A stretch of DNA of 64,000 nt from Kutzneria buriramensis. GTDB lineage: Bacteria; Actinomycetota; Actinomycetes; Mycobacteriales; Pseudonocardiaceae. Every line of letters begins with the position of its first letter. Position 1 is the stretch's first letter. The translations under genes and the position numbers were made by a program. Of this stretch, positions 19,516-55,686 are shown piece by piece. Under the pieces are notes generated by a model that was not told the origin of the DNA, searched no databases, and saw nothing but the letters and a program-made list of their open reading frames with translations. The stretch spans positions 310,001 through 374,000 of the forward strand of contig NZ_QUNO01000010.1 of the NCBI RefSeq assembly GCF_003387475.1, read 5' to 3'.

Positions 19516-19587
19516 GTCGGAACTTCCCCTCGGCTGGACTGTTTCACACCGTAGTCGGCGGTGTCGGCGCGCCGGGACGTCAGTTAA

Positions 19588-19745
19588 CCTGCTCCGCGAG
19601 CGTGGTTACGGGAAGCCGGTGCGAATCCGGCGCGGTCCCGCCACTGTGACCGGGGAGTTGTCCCGCAGAGCTACAGCCACTGGGCGCGTGCGCCTGGGAA
19701 GGCGCGGCGACGGCGGCGATCCGGGAGCCAGGAGACCGGCCACGC
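19588..19745 (+). ncRNA. Cobalamin (B12) riboswitch
   Basis: The aptamer core is clear: GGGAAGCCGGTGCGAATCCG at about 19610-19629, then the B12-box-like GCGGTCCCGCCACTGTGACC, the paired arms around GGGAGTTGTCCCGCAG, GCCACTGGG...CTGGGAAGGCG, and the closing GGGAGCCAGGAGACCGGCC at about 19722-19741. Outer boundaries are approximate. It precedes the cobM-cobJ-cobA-cbiMQXO operon and should repress it when adenosylcobalamin is abundant. No T-rich terminator follows, so control is probably at translation initiation, near the GGAGG at 19764-19768. Confidence 0.95.
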
Positions 19746-19773
19746 GACCGACATGCGTCGCACGGAGGATGTG

Positions 19774-34180: not shown

Positions 34181-34360
34181 TCGATGGCGGGCCCCTCGAC
34201 CACCCGGCCGGCCCTCGAACCGTCGACCAGCCCTGTGACCGTCGGCCACCCCTGGACCGTTGGCCGCGCGTAGACCATGAGGCCACGCCTAGACCGTCAA
34301 CCAACCACTTAACCGTCGGCCGACCTCATGACCGTCGGCGAATCGCTTCACCGCCCGCGA
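34161..34360. repeat. Phased degenerate 18-20 bp direct repeats at the gntR 3' end (array A)
   Basis: Units resembling GACCGTCGGCCACCCCT recur with the ACC step at 34161, 34180 (weak), 34199, 34219, 34238, 34256, 34274, 34293, 34312, 34331 and 34350. Spacings are 18-20 bp throughout. The array begins inside the last codons of gntR, crosses its stop and fills the first half of the 371-bp convergent spacer. Units differ by several bases, so these are old or mutated copies. No function known. Confidence 0.75.
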
Positions 34361-34484
34361 ATGCCGGCGTTCACCGACAGACTGCTGGCCTCCGGCGAGT
34401 TGCTCCGCGGCAAATTTGCTCGGCCGGTGACGAGCTACCCGTCCGTGCACGAACCGCTCGGCCGCCAGCCGGCCACTCGACCGT

Positions 34485-34527
34485 CGAAGTTCTCGACTTC
34501 GTTGAAAAGCTCGACTTCGTTGAACAC
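34485..34527. repeat. 18-bp tandem repeat of the TTCGACGAA/TTCAACGAA type
   Basis: CTCGACTTCGTTGAA occurs exactly twice, at 34492-34506 and 34510-34524, 18 bp apart, with a related CGAAGTT at 34485. On the reverse strand the unit reads TTCAACGAAGTCGAG. Closely related 18-bp units lie inside the TPR membrane-protein gene (54570-54614 and 55041-55106). The rest of the spacer, 34361-34551, shows no gene. Confidence 0.65.
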
Positions 34528-34551
34528 CGGGCCGGCGACCGACTGGTCGGC

Positions 34552-35385: not shown

Positions 35386-35443
35386 GGCCAGAGCATGGCC
35401 GCCGGCCGGGCGGGCGCGCGAGCTCCCCGACGAACTCGACGCG

Positions 35444-35563
35444 ACCGCCCGACGGTCACCAAGACCGCGCCACGGTCACCCGGACCACGCGACTGTCACC
35501 ATGACCGCACCACGTTCACCCGGACCACACCACTGTCACCATGACCGCCCGACCGTCACCAGG
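35444..35563. repeat. Phased 20-bp direct repeats at the P450 3' end (array B)
   Basis: Six units with the ACC step at exactly 35444, 35464, 35484, 35504, 35524 and 35544 (period 20). Consensus is roughly GACCGCNCCACNGTCACC, and alternate units begin ATGACCGC and CGGACCAC, giving a 40-bp higher-order pattern. The last unit contains the P450 stop codon (35556-35558). The repeats fill most of the spacer between P450 and the methyltransferase. Confidence 0.85.
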
Positions 35564-37591: not shown

Positions 37592-40576
<2,985 letters not shown>

Positions 40577-47140: not shown

Positions 47141-48467
47141 GGACACGCTCCCAGTCGGTGACAGCGGAGTCGAACGCGGCCAGTTCGACGCGGGCCGCGT
47201 TGCAGTAGTGGTCGACGACGTCTTCGCCGAACGCGTCACGGGCGATCGCGCTGGCCGCGAACAGATCCCTGGCCTCGCGCAACGAGGACGGCACGGTCGG
47301 CTTGTCCGAGGCGTAGGCGTTGCCGGACAGCTCCGGCTCCAGCGTCAGCTCGTTGTCGATGCCGTGCAGGCCGGCCGCGATCAGCGCGGCGACCGCCAGG
47401 TACGGATTCACATCGCCGCCCGGCACCCGGTTCTCGATGCGCAGACCGGGGCCGTGGCCGACCAGCCGCAGCGCGCAGGTCCGGTTGTCGCTGCCCCAGG
47501 CGACGGCCGTCGGCGCGAAGCTGCCGGGCTGGAAACGCTTGTAGGAGTTGATGTTCGGCGCGAACAGCAGCGTCAGGTCACGCAGCGCCGCGATCTGGCC
47601 GGCGATGAACTGCTGCGCCGTGGTGGACATGCCGTGCGGGCCGTCACCGACAAACGTGAGACCGCCGTCCGTGCCACGGAGGCTGATGTGGATGTGGCAG
47701 GAGTTGCCCTCGCGCTCGTTGTACTTGGCCATGAAGGTGAGGCTGCGGCCCTCCTGGGCGGCGATCTCCTTCGCGCCGGTCTTGTAGATCGCGTGGTTGT
47801 CGCAGGTCGGCAGCGCCTCGTCGTAGCGGAAGACGATCTCGTGCTGGCCGAAGTTGCACTCGCCCTTGGCCGACTCGACCATCAGGCCGGCGCCGCTCAT
47901 CTCGTTGCGGATGCGGCGCAGCAACGGCTCGATACGGGAGGTTCCGAGCAGCGAGTAGTCCACATTGTACTGATTGGCCGGGCGCAGATCGCGGTAGCCG
48001 AGGTCGTGCGCCTGCTCGTAGCTGTCGTCGAAGACGATGAACTCCAGCTCCGTGCCGACGAAAGCCGCGAGACCCCGCTCCGCGAGCCGGTCGAGCTGGC
48101 GGCGCAGCACCTGGCGCGGCGACACGGTGACCGGGCTGCGGTCCTCCCACTCGACGTCGCACAGCACCATCGCCGTGCCCGGCAGCCAGGGCGTGAGCCG
48201 TAACGTGCTGAGATCCGGGCGCATGACGAAGTCGCCGTAGCCGCGCTCCCACGAGGACATCCGGTAGCCGCTGACGGTGTTCATCTCGACGTCGACCGCG
48301 AGCAGGTAGTTGCAGCCCTCGGTGGCGTGGTCCAGCACCACGTCCAGGAAGTAGCCGGCGGAGCAGCGTTTGCCCTGGAGGCGGCCCTGCATGTCCACGA
48401 TGGCCACCAGAACGGTGTCGACCTCGCCGGTCTCGACCAGTTCGCGCAGTGCGTCGACGGTGATCAC
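47121..48467 (-). CDS. Glutamine synthetase homologue, probable gamma-glutamyl-amine synthetase (PuuA/GlnA3/GlnA4-like)
   Basis: 448 residues. Glutamine-synthetase beta-grasp (DTVLVAIVDMQGRLQGKR) and catalytic domain with GTELEFIVFDDSYEQAH, ESAKGECNFGQHEI, SCHIHISL, NSYKRFQPGSFAPTAVAWG and ENRVPGGDVNPYLAVAALIAAGL. The adenylylation Tyr region of true GlnA is absent. Context with a C26 hydrolase, aldehyde dehydrogenase and FadR regulator matches amine-catabolic relatives that ligate glutamate to polyamines or ethanolamine; Streptomyces GlnA3 and GlnA4 are studied examples. Which amine is used cannot be told from sequence. GTG 48467; first gene of the operon. Confidence 0.88.
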   Translation of the reverse strand: MITVDALRELVETGEVDTVLVAIVDMQGRLQGKRCSAGYFLDVVLDHATEGCNYLLAVDVEMNTVSGYRMSSWERGYGDFVMRPDLSTLRLTPWLPGTAMVLCDVEWEDRSPVTVSPRQVLRRQLDRLAERGLAAFVGTELEFIVFDDSYEQAHDLGYRDLRPANQYNVDYSLLGTSRIEPLLRRIRNEMSGAGLMVESAKGECNFGQHEIVFRYDEALPTCDNHAIYKTGAKEIAAQEGRSLTFMAKYNEREGNSCHIHISLRGTDGGLTFVGDGPHGMSTTAQQFIAGQIAALRDLTLLFAPNINSYKRFQPGSFAPTAVAWGSDNRTCALRLVGHGPGLRIENRVPGGDVNPYLAVAALIAAGLHGIDNELTLEPELSGNAYASDKPTVPSSLREARDLFAASAIARDAFGEDVVDHYCNAARVELAAFDSAVTDWERVRGFERL

Positions 48468-48533
48468 GGGGACCGCCCTTCCTCGCCCGGCTCCAATGGA
48501 CTGATCCTGACCCATTGCACGGCCTCGGTCAAC

Positions 48534-48617
48534 ATGCGCTACGCTGACCTCGTGCGTTGGTATCCGTGGTTTAGCAAGCCGGCCCTGGGTGGGCCCGGCG
48601 GCGACCACGCGCGCTGA
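48534..48617 (+). CDS. Aromatic-rich leader peptide of DAHP synthase attenuator
   Basis: A 27-codon frame starting ATG 48534 encodes a peptide with R-W-Y-P-W-F at codons 8-13 (TGG 48558, TAT 48561, TGG 48567, TTT 48570), four aromatic residues in five positions. It ends at TGA 48615-48617, ahead of a strong intrinsic terminator and the DAHP synthase gene. This is the classic layout of ribosome-mediated attenuation: scarcity of charged Trp/Tyr/Phe tRNA stalls the ribosome at 48558-48572 and changes downstream RNA folding. Confidence 0.85.
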   Translation: MRYADLVRWYPWFSKPALGGPGGDHAR

Positions 48618-48639
48618 CCACGGAGCACCCAGAGCCGGC
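48578..48639 (+). promoter_or_regulatory. Alternative RNA pairings between leader peptide and terminator
   Basis: GCCGGCCCTGGG (48578-48589) can pair with CCCAGAGCCGGC (48628-48639) with one mismatch, or fold locally with GGGCCCGGC at 48591-48599. The two are mutually exclusive. A ribosome stalled on the aromatic codons would cover the left arm. I could not find an unambiguous antiterminator that overlaps the terminator stem, so the exact switch is inferred only. Confidence 0.5.
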
Positions 48640-48672
48640 AAGGCAGAGACTTCGGTCTCTGCCTTTTGTTTT
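48640..48672 (+). terminator. Intrinsic terminator of the DAHP synthase attenuator
   Basis: An 11-bp stem (AAGGCAGAGAC with GTCTCTGCCTT) closed by a TTCG tetraloop and followed by TTTTGTTTT. A textbook Rho-independent terminator with U tract is rare in DNA of this G+C, and it sits between the leader peptide and the DAHP synthase start. Confidence 0.92.
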
Positions 48673-48734
48673 GCCCAGACACCCAGGGCAGGCCGGCGGC
48701 GGATCTCTCCGACGGTCTGCGGAGAGGAATCCCG

Positions 48735-49838
48735 ATGTCCACCAACAACCAGCGCATCGTCAGCTCGCGGCCGATGGTGTCGCCGGCGCTGCTGCGCGAT
48801 GAGGCCCCGCTGACCGACGCCGCCGAGGCCGTCGTCGTGCAGAGCCGGACCGCCGTGACCAAGGTGCTCGACGGCGTCGACGACCGATTGCTGGTCGTAG
48901 TGGGACCGTGCTCGGTGCACGATCCCGTGGCCGGCCTCGACTACGCGCGGAGGCTGGCCGCCCTGTCCGACGAGCTGTCCGGCGACCTGTGCGTCGTCAT
49001 GCGGGTGTACTTCGAGAAGCCGCGCACCACGCTGGGGTGGAAGGGCCTGATCAACGACCCGCGGCTGGACGGCTCGTACGACGTCAACCACGGGCTGCGG
49101 ATCGCCCGCCGGCTGCTGCTCGACATCCTCGCGCTGGGGCTGCCGGTGGGCTGCGAGTTCCTCGACCCGATCACCCCACAGTACATCGCCGACACCGTGA
49201 GCTGGGGATCCATCGGCGCGCGGACCGCGCAGAGCCAGGTGCACCGGCAGCTGTGCAGCGGCCTGTCGATGCCGATCGGCATCAAGAACTCGACCGAGGG
49301 TGATGTGCAGGCCGCCGTCGACGCGGTCAAGGCGGCGGCGTCCAGCCACGTGTTCCCCGGTATCACCGACGACGGCCTGGCGGCGATCTTCTCCACAGCC
49401 GGCAACCCCGACTGCCACGTCATCCTGCGCGGCAGCAGCCTCGGGCCGAACTACGACCGGGGCAGCGTCGAGCACACCGTCGGCCGGCTGGCCAAGGCCG
49501 GGCTGCCGGAGCGGGTGATCGTCGACGGCAGCCACGGCAACAGTGGCAAGGACCACCTGCGCCAGCCGGTCGTCGCCGCTGACATCGCGGAGCGGATCGC
49601 CGGGGGCGAGACCGAGGTCGTCGGCATCATGCTGGAGAGCTTCCTGGAGGCCGGGCGTCAGGAGCTCGTGCTCGGGCACGCGGAGGACCTGGCGTACGGG
49701 CAGAGCGTGACGGACGCGTGCATGGGCTGGGATGTGACGGAGTCCGTGCTCCGGTCGCTCGCCTCGGCGGTCGGTCAGCGGCGGGCTTCGCGGTCGGTCA
49801 AGGCGACTGCGTCGGCTTCCTCGATCGCGACGGCGTAG
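48735..49838 (+). CDS. aroF: Class I DAHP synthase (AroF/AroG/AroH type)
   Basis: 367 residues. It condenses PEP and erythrose 4-phosphate, the first step of the shikimate pathway. VVVGPCSVHDP, MRVYFEKPRTTLGWKGLINDP, GCEFLDPITPQYIAD, SWGSIGARTAQSQVHRQL, MPIGIKNSTEGD, ILRGSSLGPNYD and DGSHGNSGKDH are the class I-alpha active-site blocks. Many actinomycetes rely on the class II enzyme, so this may be an additional isozyme. ATG 48735 follows GGAGAGGA. Controlled by the aromatic leader. The last 18 residues (S/A/T-rich tail) lie in DNA that already shows the repeat units of array C. Confidence 0.94.
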   Translation: MSTNNQRIVSSRPMVSPALLRDEAPLTDAAEAVVVQSRTAVTKVLDGVDDRLLVVVGPCSVHDPVAGLDYARRLAALSDELSGDLCVVMRVYFEKPRTTLGWKGLINDPRLDGSYDVNHGLRIARRLLLDILALGLPVGCEFLDPITPQYIADTVSWGSIGARTAQSQVHRQLCSGLSMPIGIKNSTEGDVQAAVDAVKAAASSHVFPGITDDGLAAIFSTAGNPDCHVILRGSSLGPNYDRGSVEHTVGRLAKAGLPERVIVDGSHGNSGKDHLRQPVVAADIAERIAGGETEVVGIMLESFLEAGRQELVLGHAEDLAYGQSVTDACMGWDVTESVLRSLASAVGQRRASRSVKATASASSIATA

Positions 49839-50050
49839 CACCCGGTCGGGGGCACAGCGCTCGGTCGACGACACAGACCTCGGTCAACGACACAGTGCTC
49901 CGTCAACGACAGAGCACCCGGGCAACGACGCACAGCACCTGGCCAACGGCTCAATACCTGGCCAACGACACAAGGCTTGGCCGGCGACGCGAGGCTCGAT
50001 CCGCGACGCAGCACTCGGGCGGGCGGCGACATGGTCGGTCAACCGATCAG
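49772..50050. repeat. Phased 19-bp direct repeats across the aroF 3' end (array C)
   Basis: Units like CTCGGTCAACGACACAG recur with the CGG/TGG step at 49843, 49862, 49881, 49900, 49919, 49940, 49959, 49978, 49997, 50016 and 50036. Spacing is 19 bp with single 20 and 21 bp steps. Weaker units at 49772, 49795 and 49822 lie inside the end of the aroF coding sequence. The array fills most of the 343-bp convergent spacer to the acetyltransferase gene, which holds no gene. Confidence 0.85.
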
Positions 50051-50051
50051 G

Positions 50052-50089
50052 CCCCGTCGTCGGTCATCAGCCCCGTCGTCGGTCATCAG
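50052..50089. repeat. Perfect 19-bp tandem duplication next to array C
   Basis: CCCCGTCGTCGGTCATCAG occurs at 50052-50070 and again, base for base, at 50071-50089 with no gap. The unit length equals the array C period, suggesting the same expansion process acting recently. Confidence 0.9.
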
Positions 50090-50157
50090 GCCACTCGTCG
50101 ACGACGGGGCCGGTCGTCGTTGCGACTGGTCGGCGGCGAACGTTGATGGTTGACGGG

Positions 50158-50197
50158 AGTGGTCAATGGTTGATTCGCCAGTCAACCATTGACCACT
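50158..50197. terminator. Hairpin between array C and the acetyltransferase gene
   Basis: A perfect 16-bp stem, AGTGGTCAATGGTTGA (50158-50173) with TCAACCATTGACCACT (50182-50197), and an 8-nt loop. It is less GC-rich than most hairpins here. It contains the acetyltransferase stop (50182-50184) and lies in a convergent spacer, so it can terminate from both sides. Confidence 0.65.
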
Positions 50198-50667
50198 GTG
50201 GACCGTGGTTGACGTAGTTGACGACTCATGAGCAAGGCGGGGTACTCCCAGTCGGCGAGATCGAGTTCGCGAACTGCCTGGAAGCCGACGGAGCGGTAGA
50301 AGCGCCGGGTGCCCGCGTAGTTGTCGGCGCACTTCTCGACGACGGACGGGCCGAGTGTCAGCACGGTGAGCAGGGTGCAGCCGTCGGCGACCAAGGCGTC
50401 GACAGCGGCCGAGACCAGCGCCTTGCCGAAGCCGCAGTGACGATGCGCCGGGTGGACGGCCATCCAGGAGATCTCCGGGTTGATGAGCTGCTCGACGGTG
50501 AGGAATCCGACGACGACGCCGTCCAGCTCGGCGGCCCAGCCGCGCTGGGTCCGCACCGCCTCGGCGCAGGCCTGGATGCCGGACTCCACGCCGAAAAACG
50601 TCGGTAGGGCGGCAATGATCTCGTCGCAGCGCGGGGCGTCGGCGGCGCTCAGGTCGCGGATCGGCAC
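50182..50667 (-). CDS. GNAT-family N-acetyltransferase
   Basis: 161 residues. VVVGFLTVEQLINPEISWMAVHPAHRHCGFGKALVSAAVD holds the acetyl-CoA loop (R/Q-x-x-G-x-G/A reads HRHCGFGKAL), and YAGTRRFYRSVGFQAVREL is the C-terminal signature. The substrate is unknown. GTG 50667 (VPIRDLSAADAPRC) is chosen by similarity; no good ribosome binding site. The last 10 residues fall in the hairpin region and may have been altered by the repeats. Confidence 0.85.
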   Translation of the reverse strand: MPIRDLSAADAPRCDEIIAALPTFFGVESGIQACAEAVRTQRGWAAELDGVVVGFLTVEQLINPEISWMAVHPAHRHCGFGKALVSAAVDALVADGCTLLTVLTLGPSVVEKCADNYAGTRRFYRSVGFQAVRELDLADWEYPALLMSRQLRQPRSTVVNG

Positions 50668-50721
50668 GGATGGCAGCCTGATCGGGCAGCGCCCAGGTCG
50701 GCAACGGGTTTTGGAGGTCGG

Positions 50722-51072
50722 ATGAAGGACGAACGGGAGTTCTTCGACGTCGAGGCGGTGCCGTGGCGGCCGGACCCGACCGCGGCGGGCATCACCGAAC
50801 GGGTGTTGAGCCGGGAGTCGGACGGCTCGGTCGGCACGCGCATCGCGAGGTGGGCCGCGGGCACCGAGACGTCGGGCGTGATCCGGCACGACTACTTCGA
50901 GGAGGTTCTCCTGCTCGAAGGCTCACTTCACGACATCACGCTCGACCGGACATTCGGCGCGGGGTACTTCGCCTCGCGGCAGCCGGGCATGCCGCACGGC
51001 CCGTACCGGACGGTAGACGGCTGCACGATGCTGGAGATCCGGCACCACATTGATCAACCACCAGTCAGCTGA
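50722..51072 (+). CDS. Cupin-domain protein
   Basis: 116 residues, single small beta-barrel cupin. HDYFEEVLLLEGSLHD corresponds to cupin motif 1 and PGMPHGPYRTVDGCTMLEIRH to motif 2, with three possible metal-binding histidines. Relatives include ChrR/anti-sigma cupins and small dioxygenases; no reaction can be assigned. ATG 50722 follows GGAGG. Diverges from the acetyltransferase; its 3' end overlaps the opposing TPR gene by 19 bp. Confidence 0.8.
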   Translation: MKDEREFFDVEAVPWRPDPTAAGITERVLSRESDGSVGTRIARWAAGTETSGVIRHDYFEEVLLLEGSLHDITLDRTFGAGYFASRQPGMPHGPYRTVDGCTMLEIRHHIDQPPVS

Positions 51073-52379
51073 CGGAACTTGAGCTGGTTGTACGGGGAGT
51101 CGGGTCGGACGCTGATCCGCTCCCCGACCAGCACCCGGGCCTGCGCACTGCGGCCGGCGCGGAGGGCCGCCTCGACGAGCGTGCGCTGCATGACGTCCCG
51201 CTGAGCGTGGCTGCCGCCGAACTCGTGCACGTACCGGCGGATGGGCCACAGCAGGTCGACGGCCTCGGCAAACCGGCCGCGGCCGAACGCGAGCAATGCT
51301 TCACAAATGGGCAGGCCGATCCGGGCGGTCATGGCGACGTTCGTCGCCGGCCCGGCTTCGGCGACGTAGCGGCGGCGGTCGGCGATGAGGTCGGCGGCGA
51401 GATTGTCCTCGCCGGCGCCGACGTACGACATGACCGCATGCATGTCGTTGAAGGCGTTGAACGGAATGGTCATGCGGGGCGGCCAGGTCGCGGCGAGCTT
51501 GGCCCATCGGTCGCCGGCGTCCTCACCGAGCAGGTGCAGCCGCCACATGAGGCTGGCGGCGTTGACCGCTTCGGTGATGCTGGACTCGTCGGTCGGCGCG
51601 AGTCGTTCGTCGTAGACGTCGAGCGCCTCGCGGTAGCGGCCGGCCTCCAGCAGGAACAGGCAGTAGTGCCACCAGATGTGCACACGCAGCAGGTTGGTGC
51701 GGTCCCAATCGGGTCGGCGGCGGTCGAGCATCGCGATGCCGATGTCGAAGGTGGCGCGCATCTCGTGGGTGTGGCCGACGGCATGCACGCTCCAGACGTC
51801 GGCGGCGTCGAGTTCCATCGCGCGCAGGCCGGTGTGTTCGGCCAGCTCCCAATGTCCGCACTCCTCCAGGCCGAACGCGTACATGCCGAGCAGGTTGGCG
51901 TAGTGCGGGTCGGCCGGACTCCAGGCCGGCAGTGCGGCGCCGATGCGGTCTCGCAGCGACGTGGCGTTGCCGGTGAGGAAGTCGAGCTGGTGGCCGACGG
52001 CCAGCGCGAGGGCGTCGCGCGGTTGATCGGCAGTCAGGTCGGCGAGCAGCGCGCCGGCGGTGATGAGGTCGCCGTCGAGCAGCTTGGCGGCCGCTTCGAC
52101 GTGGAGGCGTTCACCGTCGGTGAGGTCGCCGACGCGCCGGCGGAATTCGGCGAAATCGGCGGCGACCGGCGGCACGAACTTCGGATCGGTGCTGAGCACG
52201 GCCAGGTAGACGCGCATAGCGTTGGCGGTGGGCTGCTGCGGGTCCTCTGTGACCGCACGCTCGGACCGCTCGCCGACGTCGGTGCGGAAGTGCAACAGCG
52301 AGTCGACTGCACCGTCGAGTTCGTCGACCGCGGTGGCAGTCGCGGCGTGCACCGAAATTCCATGCTGGTCCTGGCGCAT
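51054..52379 (-). CDS. TPR-repeat protein of the TTC38 family
   Basis: 441 residues made of helical repeats. HYANLLGMYAFGLEECGHWELAE, DVWSVHAVGHTHEMRATFDIGIAML and NLLRVHIWWHYCLFLLEAGRYREALDVYD are the hallmark blocks shared with human TTC38. These proteins probably scaffold others; their function is unknown. ATG 52379 lies 18 bp from the start of the divergent 2H phosphoesterase gene, so promoters or untranslated leaders must overlap. The 3' end overlaps the cupin gene. Confidence 0.83.
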   Translation of the reverse strand: MRQDQHGISVHAATATAVDELDGAVDSLLHFRTDVGERSERAVTEDPQQPTANAMRVYLAVLSTDPKFVPPVAADFAEFRRRVGDLTDGERLHVEAAAKLLDGDLITAGALLADLTADQPRDALALAVGHQLDFLTGNATSLRDRIGAALPAWSPADPHYANLLGMYAFGLEECGHWELAEHTGLRAMELDAADVWSVHAVGHTHEMRATFDIGIAMLDRRRPDWDRTNLLRVHIWWHYCLFLLEAGRYREALDVYDERLAPTDESSITEAVNAASLMWRLHLLGEDAGDRWAKLAATWPPRMTIPFNAFNDMHAVMSYVGAGEDNLAADLIADRRRYVAEAGPATNVAMTARIGLPICEALLAFGRGRFAEAVDLLWPIRRYVHEFGGSHAQRDVMQRTLVEAALRAGRSAQARVLVGERISVRPDSPYNQLKFRQLTGG

Positions 52380-52397
52380 TCCCCCGACAATACGGCC

Positions 52398-52925
52398 ATG
52401 ACGTTGACTGTCGGCGCCACCGGCGTGATCATTCCCGTGCTGGCGGCGGAGCAGCTCCTGGACCGGCCGGGTGTGCCGCAGCGGGTGGTCGAAGCGCACG
52501 TGACGGTGCTGTTCCCCTGGCTGCCGGTGGACCGGATGACAGATCAGGACGAGTGCGACCTGGCCGCCATCTTCGCCGACACCCCGCCGATCGACGTCCG
52601 GCTCGCGGAGTTCGGTCGCTTTCCGACGGTCCTCTACCTGCGCCCCGAACCGGAGGCGCCGTTCCGTGCCCTCACCCGGCGGGTGGCCGGTCGGTGGCCG
52701 GACTACCCGCCGTACGGCGGCGAGTTCGGCGACGACATCCAGCCGCACGTGACCGTCGCGATGGACGTCTCCGACGAAATCCAGAAGTTCGTCGAAAACG
52801 AGCTTTTCGGCGAACTTCCGGTCCGCGACCGACTTGCCGAGGCGTGGTTGGTCTACTCCGACGGCGAGCGGTGGCGTCGGCGGGCGACGTTCCCGTTCAG
52901 AGCAGACCCAGCTGGGCGGCCCTGA
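52398..52925 (+). CDS. 2H phosphoesterase / 2'-5' RNA ligase-like protein
   Basis: 175 residues. Two H-x-T motifs, EAHVTVLFPW (about residue 34) and PHVTVAMDV (about 117), form the twin active site of the 2H superfamily that handles 2',3'-cyclic or 2'-5' phosphodiester bonds in RNA or nucleotides. ATG 52398 is head-to-head with the TTC38-like gene. Its final 29 bp overlap the opposing LuxR gene. A role in RNA repair or nucleotide processing is likely but the substrate is not defined. Confidence 0.85.
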   Translation: MTLTVGATGVIIPVLAAEQLLDRPGVPQRVVEAHVTVLFPWLPVDRMTDQDECDLAAIFADTPPIDVRLAEFGRFPTVLYLRPEPEAPFRALTRRVAGRWPDYPPYGGEFGDDIQPHVTVAMDVSDEIQKFVENELFGELPVRDRLAEAWLVYSDGERWRRRATFPFRADPAGRP

Positions 52926-53934: not shown

Positions 53935-55686
53935 CTACGACTCGTTGACCAGCGACACCGCGCCCGCGCACACCGCACAGACCAGCGCGAAGACCAGCGG
54001 TTCCATGGTGCCGGCGTTGGCCCGGTCGAGCATCGCCCACAGCAGCACCAGGGCCGTGGACAACGCGAGCAACACACACGAAAGTCCGATCACCGGACGA
54101 CGTAGCGGCATGGCCAGCACGGCGAGCCGGCTGCCCGCCGGCACCCGGACCAGTTCGACGAACGCCAGCACCACGACCACACACGGGATGGCGAAGCCCA
54201 GCCAGGCCAGCACCGGCGTCGGCTTCGGCAGGCCGGCCACCATCAGGAACATGTCGGCGATGACCAGCGTCATGGCCAGTTGCCGGATGCCGCGCCAGGC
54301 CAGGCTCTCCGGGATGGGCGACACGGAGCGGTCGACAGCGCGGCTGCCGGCGGGTCGGTCGACACCCGGTCGGTCGGCGGGTCGGTCGACACCGCGACGG
54401 TTGGCCGCAGGCCGGTTGGCGCCGTGGCGGTCGGCGGTGTTGTGACGGTCGGCAGCATGACGGTCGGCGGCGGGCTGATGGCCGCCGTGAGAGCGGCCGC
54501 CGTTGGTGAACTGATCGTCGTCTGCATGTCGCCCGGTGGCCCGCCGGCCGGCAGCGCGACCGTCGCGAGAAGTTCGACGAAATCCTCGATTTCGACGAAA
54601 ACCAGAAGTTCGACCGCGGGCGTGTCCGTCGTCGGCGGGGGTGTCGGGGGTGGAGCGGTCCACGGTCGAAAACGAGGAGGGGTCGCGGCCGTGGGTGAAG
54701 CGGCCAGGATCCTGCCTGTCGGAGGCGAACGCCCGGTGGGCGGTTGACCGATCGGCCGCCGACCAAGCGGTGGATGACCGCGGTGCCGACCAGCCGGCGA
54801 CAGGCCGGTCAGTGCCGGACCAGGAGGTGGGTGACCAGGAGGCGGACCGGTCGGCGACGGGTCGGTCGATCGCGAACCCGTCGGGGGCGGACCAGGCGGG
54901 GGCGGACCAGGCAACGGGTTGGTCGGGGTCGTGTTGGTGGGCGAGCGAGCGGTCCGCTGATCGGCGAGCCGTCCACGGGTGCGCCCACGGACGTGTCGGT
55001 CGACCGGAAAGTGAGGGTTGGTCGACATCGAGGGTCGCGGCGAAGTTGGGGTTTGCGTCGAAGTTCTGGTTTTCGACGAAGTCGGGGTTTTCGGCGAAGT
55101 TCACGGCGGCCGACCGCCGGGACGTGGGTTGGCGGAGTCGGGCCAGTTCGGCGCGGACGCGGGAGTCGCCGGGTTTGCGGCGCAGGGCGGTGCGGTAGGC
55201 ACGCTCGGCGGTGACGATGTCGCCGGTCCGACGGGCGGCGTCACCCAGCACGAGGTACGGGCGGACATGGTCGGGCTGGTAACGGACGGCCTGGGCGGCG
55301 GCGTCGACGGCGTCGGGCCAACTGCCGGCGGCGCCGAAGGCCTCGGCGAGGGAGATGCGGCACCGCCAGTCGGTGGGCTCCAGACGCACGGCCTGGCGAG
55401 CGGCGGTGACGGCGTCGGCGTGGCGGTCGAGGCGACTGAGCGCCTTGCTGGCGAGACGGTGCGCCCACGCCTTGTCCCCGCCGAGCGGCATTGCCCGGCG
55501 AGCGGCGGCCAGGGCGGCGGTGGCGTCGCCGCGGTCCAGCAGCGCGGCGGCGAGCCGGCACCAGACCTCGGGACTGTCGGGATGGCTGGCAGCGATGCCG
55601 CGCAGCAGGGCAACCGCTTTGCGTCGCCGGCCGGAGGCACTCAACTTGGCAGCTCGATCGAGCACGTCTCCGAGCGGTTCGACCAT
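53935..55686 (-). CDS. TPR membrane protein with expanded low-complexity linker
   Basis: 583 residues in three parts. Residues 1-about 170 are tetratricopeptide repeats (AVALLRGIAASHPDSPEVWCRLAAALLDRGDATAALAAARRAM, HADAVTAARQAVRLEPTDW, VRPYLVLGDAARRTGDIVTAERAYRTALRRKPGD). Residues about 190-465 are a disordered linker of short repeats: NFAENPDFVENQNFDANPNF, then ADRS/DRPV-type and AADRH/VDRPA-type runs. Residues about 470-583 hold three or four membrane helices ending near the stop. ATG 55686 follows GGGAGGG. The linker DNA carries phased 15-18 bp repeats, and the length of this region probably varies between strains. Function unknown; a membrane-tethered adaptor is likely. Confidence 0.78.
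   Translation of the reverse strand: MVEPLGDVLDRAAKLSASGRRRKAVALLRGIAASHPDSPEVWCRLAAALLDRGDATAALAAARRAMPLGGDKAWAHRLASKALSRLDRHADAVTAARQAVRLEPTDWRCRISLAEAFGAAGSWPDAVDAAAQAVRYQPDHVRPYLVLGDAARRTGDIVTAERAYRTALRRKPGDSRVRAELARLRQPTSRRSAAVNFAENPDFVENQNFDANPNFAATLDVDQPSLSGRPTRPWAHPWTARRSADRSLAHQHDPDQPVAWSAPAWSAPDGFAIDRPVADRSASWSPTSWSGTDRPVAGWSAPRSSTAWSAADRSTAHRAFASDRQDPGRFTHGRDPSSFSTVDRSTPDTPADDGHARGRTSGFRRNRGFRRTSRDGRAAGRRATGRHADDDQFTNGGRSHGGHQPAADRHAADRHNTADRHGANRPAANRRGVDRPADRPGVDRPAGSRAVDRSVSPIPESLAWRGIRQLAMTLVIADMFLMVAGLPKPTPVLAWLGFAIPCVVVVLAFVELVRVPAGSRLAVLAMPLRRPVIGLSCVLLALSTALVLLWAMLDRANAGTMEPLVFALVCAVCAGAVSLVNES
54329..54480. repeat. 15-18 bp repeats inside the TPR protein linker (DR-rich part)
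   Basis: CGGTCGGC-like units occur at 54329, 54356, 54367, 54383, 54398, 54413, 54428, 54446 and 54461; from 54383 on, steps are mostly 15 bp, sometimes 18, i.e. whole codons. On the coding strand they read GCCGACCGT and encode the A-D-R-H / V-D-R-P runs. The core GACCGTC is shared with repeat array A. Further east, GGGGCGGACCAGGCG is duplicated near 54885-54915. Confidence 0.65.
54570..54614. repeat. 18-bp TTCGACGAA-type repeats, plus orientation
   Basis: AAGTTCGACGAAATCCTC (54570-54587), GATTTCGACGAAAACCAG (54588-54605) and AAGTTCGACC (54606-54615) are contiguous 18-bp units. On the plus strand they would encode K/D-F-D-E-x-x hexads, but the gene runs on the minus strand. So this block is inverted relative to 55041-55106. 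Confidence 0.7.
55041..55106. repeat. 18-bp TTCGACGAA-type repeats, minus orientation, coding
   Basis: CGAAGT steps at 55041, 55059, 55077 and 55095, exactly 18 bp apart. On the minus strand they encode the hexads NFAENP, DFVENQ, NFDANP and NFAATL at the start of the TPR protein linker. The same unit type occurs non-coding at 34485-34527 and inverted at 54570-54614. Confidence 0.8.

Follow-up and report, generated by a model that had tools for sequence, protein, structure and literature searches.

The aroF gene of Kutzneria buriramensis (48735-49838, + strand), which encodes a DAHP synthase of 367 amino acids (Pfam PF00793, 2e-82) with orthologues in congeners, ends in a stop codon at which a tandem array of short degenerate units begins. 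This arrangement raises the questions of how such an array arises and persists beside a gene end, and whether the process that makes it can rewrite the end of the adjoining protein. We addressed these questions in genome G000 (12 Mb, 65 contigs), within a window that comprises the whole stretch of 64,000 nucleotides at bases 310001-374000 of contig C10 (coordinates refer to this window unless stated otherwise), and compared it with six congeners, G001 to G006, each species being represented by one genome. The best-ranking named relatives of AroF come from Amycolatopsis, in a search that may omit close records.

In the 3' untranslated space at 49839-50036 (+ strand; array C), the identity of bases 19 positions apart is 0.62, with lag 38 as the runner-up (0.49). 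The lag-19 value was reached by 0 of 2000 dinucleotide shuffles, and likewise by 0 of 2000 when the best of lags 10-40 was taken. TRF reported 49853-49929 (period 38, 2.0 copies) and 49868-49982 (period 19, 5.9 copies). The original prediction described a 19-bp phase over eleven units; the periodicity is confirmed, but by eye about ten units follow the stop codon, one of which has 21 bases (a 2-base slip) and breaks the phase. The units are about 62% alike. The only perfect copies are those of the predicted 19-bp tandem duplication, which was recovered as 20 consecutive identities at lag 19 and spans 50051-50089 (+ strand), in a region where TRF reported 50046-50100 (period 19, 2.8 copies). 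With head-to-tail units of about 10-60 bp repeated above chance, as judged from lag-19 identity and TRF, array C has the composition of a minisatellite.

The convergent gap between aroF and its neighbour, a GNAT acetyltransferase gene (50182-50667, - strand; gene call, with Pfam on 50182-50889), is closed by a palindrome at 50158-50197 that has an 18-bp stem and no T run (fold z = -5.42 over 50145-50215), and array C lies between the aroF stop codon and this strong palindrome. Counterparts of the palindrome are present in G001, G002 and G006 (by eye) and in G005. We infer that it is terminator-like; the terminator scan did not call it, its sole call at this locus being a site upstream of aroF. 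Upstream of aroF (48534-48665) lies a short ORF rich in aromatic residues, MRYADLVRWYPWFSKPALGGPGGDHAR, followed by a terminator-like hairpin, and the two together likely form an attenuation leader. In a permissive scan of 12 loci (seven from this genus and five from other actinobacteria), aroF is preceded in 12 of 12 by a short ORF in which aromatic residues cluster.

The segment between the aroF stop codon and a TTGAC motif at the palindrome is 304 bases long in G000, 433 in G002, 249 in G006, 201 in G001, and 27 in G005, in which the palindrome is present and the array is absent. The segment therefore turns over fast, and, as in minisatellites, array length varies between related genomes. 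The best lag of the segment is 19 in G000 (0.57) and 37 in G002 (0.57), the only two species in which TRF at score 40 reports arrays in this segment; lags 37 and 74 are best in G006 (0.55 each, without a shuffle control), and lag 37 in G001 (0.45, likewise without a shuffle control) barely exceeds other lags. An identical array in relatives, which would speak against expansion, was looked for and not seen, the segment length differing in five congeners. Expansion with decay, as originally proposed, agrees with these differences in length, and the expansion may still be ongoing.

Older units had also been predicted to extend back into the coding end of aroF and to have given rise to the C-terminal tail of AroF. 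Neither was borne out in G000. The region 49772-49838 shows a lag-19 identity of only 0.33 (shuffle p = 0.33). Its best match to an array unit, 14 of 19 bases (shuffle p = 0.25), is equalled elsewhere in aroF by 19 of 52 windows. The part of AroF that starts at CMGW and runs to the C-terminus is 39 residues long in each of the five species with the array-bearing zone described below (G000, G001, G002, G005 and G006), at any array length, compared to 30 residues in G004 and 29 in G003. The length of the tail is thus constant while the adjoining array varies, and a repeat-derived tail is not supported for G000, where the tail has no 19-bp phase and has the C-terminal length common to the five species. 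In G002, the last coding stretch of aroF matches the local array at 16 of 19 bases (p = 0.013; 0 of 52 control windows), and the TRF array begins 18 bases ahead of the aroF end; given this match, the extra AroF tail of about 10 residues may have an older origin in repeats.

Array C is not isolated. Counting noncoding arrays with units of 17-20 or 36-38 bp and a TRF score of at least 60, we obtained 32 in 623 kb of a zone around aroF vs. 5 in 2031 kb outside it (five species; G003 and G004 not counted), the zone bounds having been drawn post hoc, after the arrays were seen, and the outside having been sampled in part; compared on noncoding sequence (111 vs. 288 kb), the difference is highly significant (p = 1.5 × 10−13). 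Within the sequence sampled and searched, this zone is a roughly 100-160 kb syntenic stretch in five congeners (G000, G001, G002, G005 and G006). The numbers of arrays inside and outside the zone are 9 and 1 in G000, 9 and 1 in G001, 4 and 0 in G002, 6 and 0 in G005, and 4 and 3 in G006; G005 and G006 show a weaker signal, and three of the five outside arrays belong to G006. A genome-wide property was not supported by either the scattered sampling or the whole-genome searches.

Exact GAAGTTCGNCGAA sites, a pattern itself derived from zone arrays, were found 34 times in the five whole genomes, and 22 of these lie inside the zone, which makes up about 1.1% of the sequence (5 of 8 in G000, 9 of 12 in G001, 7 of 8 in G002, 0 of 3 in G005, and 1 of 3 in G006); reversed as a control, the pattern has 3 sites in the five genomes. 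A sequence-only profile of three units, trained on 16/17 zone windows, was searched over seven genomes, where scoring was confined in each genome to the 150 best among thousands of first-look candidates. At E ≤ 1e-4, 47 of the 49 rows obtained this way lie in the zone, many of them being training arrays, and the other 2 lie at one place in G001 (3.3145 Mb); none of the 49 rows comes from G003 or G004. This strong G001 outlier lies in coding sequence and consists of about sixteen 18-bp units that resemble the zone unit; the gene that holds it (L264, G001:C1:3313832-3315148) by eye looks like that of a PP2C phosphatase. Among 200 genomes of the family, searched with stricter filters, 11 match at E ≤ 1e-5, namely the five zone congeners and 6 others (best 1.7e-6). 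A looser pattern, consisting of the unit of array C itself with two mismatches allowed, was discarded as it gave 199 to 217 matches per genome vs. 59 to 74 for reversed controls.

The arrays are not placed at random with respect to genes. Of the 24 array-bearing gaps in the zone, 15 are convergent and 0 divergent, the two codirectional classes contributing 7 and 2; among the 280 zone gaps of 60-1500 bases, the corresponding numbers are 52 and 80, with 67 and 81 in the codirectional classes (p = 2.5 × 10−6 for the convergent excess, 15 of 24 vs. 52 of 280). Two divergent gaps contain weak arrays below the threshold (scores 58 and 56). Turnover between species is directly observed in gap lengths. 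One set of orthologous gaps measures 373, 344, 249, 163 and 203 bases, with arrays in all five species and different units, and a convergent gap measures 363, 51, 172, 108 and 212 bases across the five species; some orthologous sites are free of arrays in some species (gaps of 8-60 bases). Several divergent gaps are constant between species (e.g., 150, 150, 150 and 150 bases, or 130, 128, 130, 130 and 129), and other divergent gaps are variable (e.g., 161, 72, 81, 73 and 68). Two further arrays in the window show the same changes in length: array A (34211-34339, + strand; period 19/37), 3' of a gene for a GntR-type regulator, lies in a gap of 371 bases in G000 vs. 81 in G002, and array B (35443-35563, - strand; period 20/40), which overlaps the last 8 bases of a P450 gene, in a gap of 263 bases vs. 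102.

The prediction that repeats can rewrite proteins holds for other genes, although not for AroF itself. A conserved protein of G000 (contig positions 267729-268550), which we take to resemble ComB, 2-phosphosulfolactate phosphatase, contains a 24-residue insertion made of four 18-bp units, and 0 of 4 orthologues have the insertion. The flank of the insertion site in G001 holds GACGAACTCCAGCAGTGCGTCG, an evident local precursor, and the array therefore probably arose in place. A second case is a gene at 53935-55686 (- strand, start codon inferred) that encodes a TPR domain and a C-terminal hydrophobic domain joined by a repeat-rich linker, in which TRF identified coding arrays of 27-, 18-, 15- and 18-bp units (54329-55101, - strand). 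After the TPR match there are 392 residues in G000, 352 in G001, 331 in G002, 432 in G005 and 398 in G006, and 151 in G004 and 142 in G003, in which the linker is short; by eye, the difference in length corresponds to the repeat-rich linker. The best unit length is a multiple of three in 32 of 35 coding arrays (3 exceptions) vs. 15 of 36 noncoding zone arrays, counting units of 14-60 bp with a score of 60 or more, some of the coding arrays being unlike the zone unit. Within genes, core matches show no concentration at the 3' end (17 of 164 in the last 90 bases, which hold 9% of coding bases). The arrays of the TPR gene are treated as coding in the unit-length count and in the comparison of 32 vs. 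5 arrays, and as noncoding in the dyad, gap-length, gene-end core and unit-similarity counts and in the count of core occurrences in array positions given below.

We consider it fairly probable that these arrays arise when local seeds of 18-19 bp are duplicated in tandem in a zone-restricted manner and the copies then decay neutrally, array C being one case: a decaying minisatellite that would have been active fairly recently. Under this explanation, local sequences of about 18-19 bp would be duplicated in tandem, mainly in the one syntenic zone of the five congeners, probably through slippage or template switching during copying, or through unequal exchange among the copies; the copies would then decay by point mutation, presumably neutrally, and later be deleted. 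Selection would allow arrays to survive at convergent 3' ends and purge them from divergent promoter gaps, and within genes it would keep mostly in-frame units, yielding disordered-looking insertions. With considerably more reserve, we suggest that an array-making activity is itself restricted to this one zone of roughly 100-160 kb, has lasted through the divergence of the five species without raising point mutation, and supplies disordered protein segments. Such an activity could stem from some feature of replication, from a site of local breakage, or from an enzyme that recognises GAAGTTCGNCGAA-like sequences.

Many arrays share a core, GAAGTTCG, which occurs 31 times in 8030 array positions vs. 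5 times in 262632 noncoding positions elsewhere (both strands), and pure local slippage alone fails to explain this shared core, the single zone and the narrow range of unit lengths. An explanation that we regard as unlikely is that the arrays form one dispersed, small-satellite-like repeat family, spread by array-to-array copying in the zone, either through gene conversion or through template switching inside a replication neighbourhood. The occurrence of the core in unlinked arrays is consistent with this, as are profile matches in the zone away from the training windows. In G000, these include 34481-34528 beside array A (- strand; profile R1, E = 1.6e-5), 52769-52819 in the gap 52353-52896 (+ strand; profile R1, E = 6.7e-8) and contig position 331472, among others; further matches lie at 2196871, 2225070, 2248668, 2274050 and 2297569 in G002, at 9275792, 9282246 and 9359620 in G005, at 3898348 and 3944818 in G001, and at 6758981 in G006. 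Unit similarity is in slight excess within species compared to between species (0.207 vs. 0.187; label-shuffle p = 0.03), which hints at exchange between arrays. However, the one insertion that could be traced has a local precursor at its site in a relative, orthologous arrays carry different units between species, and the core is absent from many arrays, including array C (by reading of its sequence). Arrays without the core are tied to the zone through position, unit length and gene-end placement.

The restriction to one zone across five species also fits the idea, improbable in our assessment, that the arrays are binding sites of a zone-organising protein, like MatP on matS in the Ter domain of E. 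coli, and so does the distance of aroF from dnaA, which is 1.8-2.0 Mb in G001, G002, G005 and G006, where the zone lies on the dnaA-carrying contig. Against such a role, the units are degenerate, unlike at orthologous sites and missing in some species, and they also form amino-acid repeats in genes. Moreover, Pfam searches of the window (25 queries, two overlapping) identified five ordinary regulators (two GntR, one TetR, one GerE/LuxR-type and one MarR) and one HerA-type ATPase, among which no candidate binder stands out.

We find it very hard to maintain that the arrays function at the RNA level, as 3' hairpins or terminators. Some 37-bp units are dyadic (G005 9384387, 0 of 500 shuffles), the strongest 60-nt hairpin after aroF falls inside the array segment in G002 (-39.6 kcal/mol), G006 (-32.6) and G001 (-30.1), without a shuffle control, and 50040-50140, which contains the perfect pair and, downstream of it, a partial copy in inverted orientation, folds with z = -2.95 (1 of 200 shuffles). 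Yet few noncoding units have dyad symmetry above shuffles at 0.05, namely 6 of 71 in the blocks analysed and 2 of 20 elsewhere, folding of arrays A, B and C is no stronger than that of most shuffled sequences (z = -0.61, -0.21 and -1.42, respectively, with -1.46 for the - strand of array C), and G005 keeps the aroF palindrome without an array. Hairpin units were thus rejected as a general rule, although single places fold well. A known RNA family at the array C locus was rejected as well, Rfam giving only two sub-threshold matches in 48300-51000 (E = 0.25 and 0.077); over the whole window, it returned one cobalamin riboswitch (19586-19758, RF00174) and two tRNAs at the gathering score.

Finally, the many length changes in the zone could be taken as signs of a general mutation hot spot, the least credible of these explanations, but median divergence at fourfold sites in the zone and outside it in the same blocks (0.241 vs. 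0.267, 0.260 vs. 0.268, and 0.249 vs. 0.244 in three comparisons) is not raised, which contradicts the point-mutation version and led us to reject regional hypermutation at these sites.

Bacterial minisatellites, or VNTR loci, consist of tandem units of tens of bases, vary in length, and lie in intergenic or coding sequence; VNTR loci are scattered, and minisatellites are usually treated as isolated loci. Unlike these, dozens of zone arrays with similar unit length are clustered. REP/REPIN elements are short repeats shared between loci, and the zone arrays differ from them in having no general dyad and in not being genome-wide. A dispersed 22-bp repeat of G004, GGAAGCGCCGACACG, with 216 sites at up to one mismatch (7 for the reversed control), looks closer to the REP/REPIN class; its copies often stand in tandem or inverted pairs, and it is a different, genome-wide repeat, so that the zone unit family was rejected for G004.

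Two published systems come closer: the tandem repeats of archaeal Borg elements are the closest parallel in behaviour, and matS is the closest in regional restriction. Borg repeats, some with units of 18-21 nt, are found both in gaps and in ORFs, where units are divisible by three, form disordered insertions, turn over fast, and are thought to arise from local sequences; they are perfect and A-rich, are spread throughout the element, and are very rarely common to different loci (PMC9879509). The zone arrays likewise occur in gaps and genes, with coding units mostly divisible by three, but unlike the Borg repeats, they are degenerate, lie mainly within one zone of a G+C-rich chromosome, and in many cases share a core. 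The zone is, moreover, on the dnaA-carrying contig (G001, G002, G005 and G006) and not on an extrachromosomal element such as a Borg. The 13-bp matS site, present in 23 copies over 800 kb and bound by MatP in the Ter macrodomain of E. coli, is a short motif with many copies restricted to one chromosomal region (PMC3330122), as the zone motif largely is, whereas the zone units are tandem, degenerate, missing at some orthologous sites and not known to be bound by a protein.

Among the titles and abstract openings listed, we found no zone-restricted repeat of a similar kind, which is a weak negative. A zone of mostly ordinary core genes in which, across five species, tandem arrays are in strong local excess yet fourfold-site divergence is normal would make positional control of the rate of tandem duplication testable, and the in-frame insertions show a route from repeats to new protein segments.

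The window also contains, near a P450 gene and a TetR regulator gene, a glycyl-tRNA synthetase with fused alpha and beta subunits (37592-40576). Elsewhere in the genus, tandem arrays of 77-78 bp units occur at several chromosomal places (L167:9629-9942, G006:C1:6582913-6583148, L208:7024-7251, L211:9307-9466, G001:C1:3970172-3970402 and G004:C6:697017-697169); most of them fill the space between gene calls, and they may represent an unrecognised gene family.
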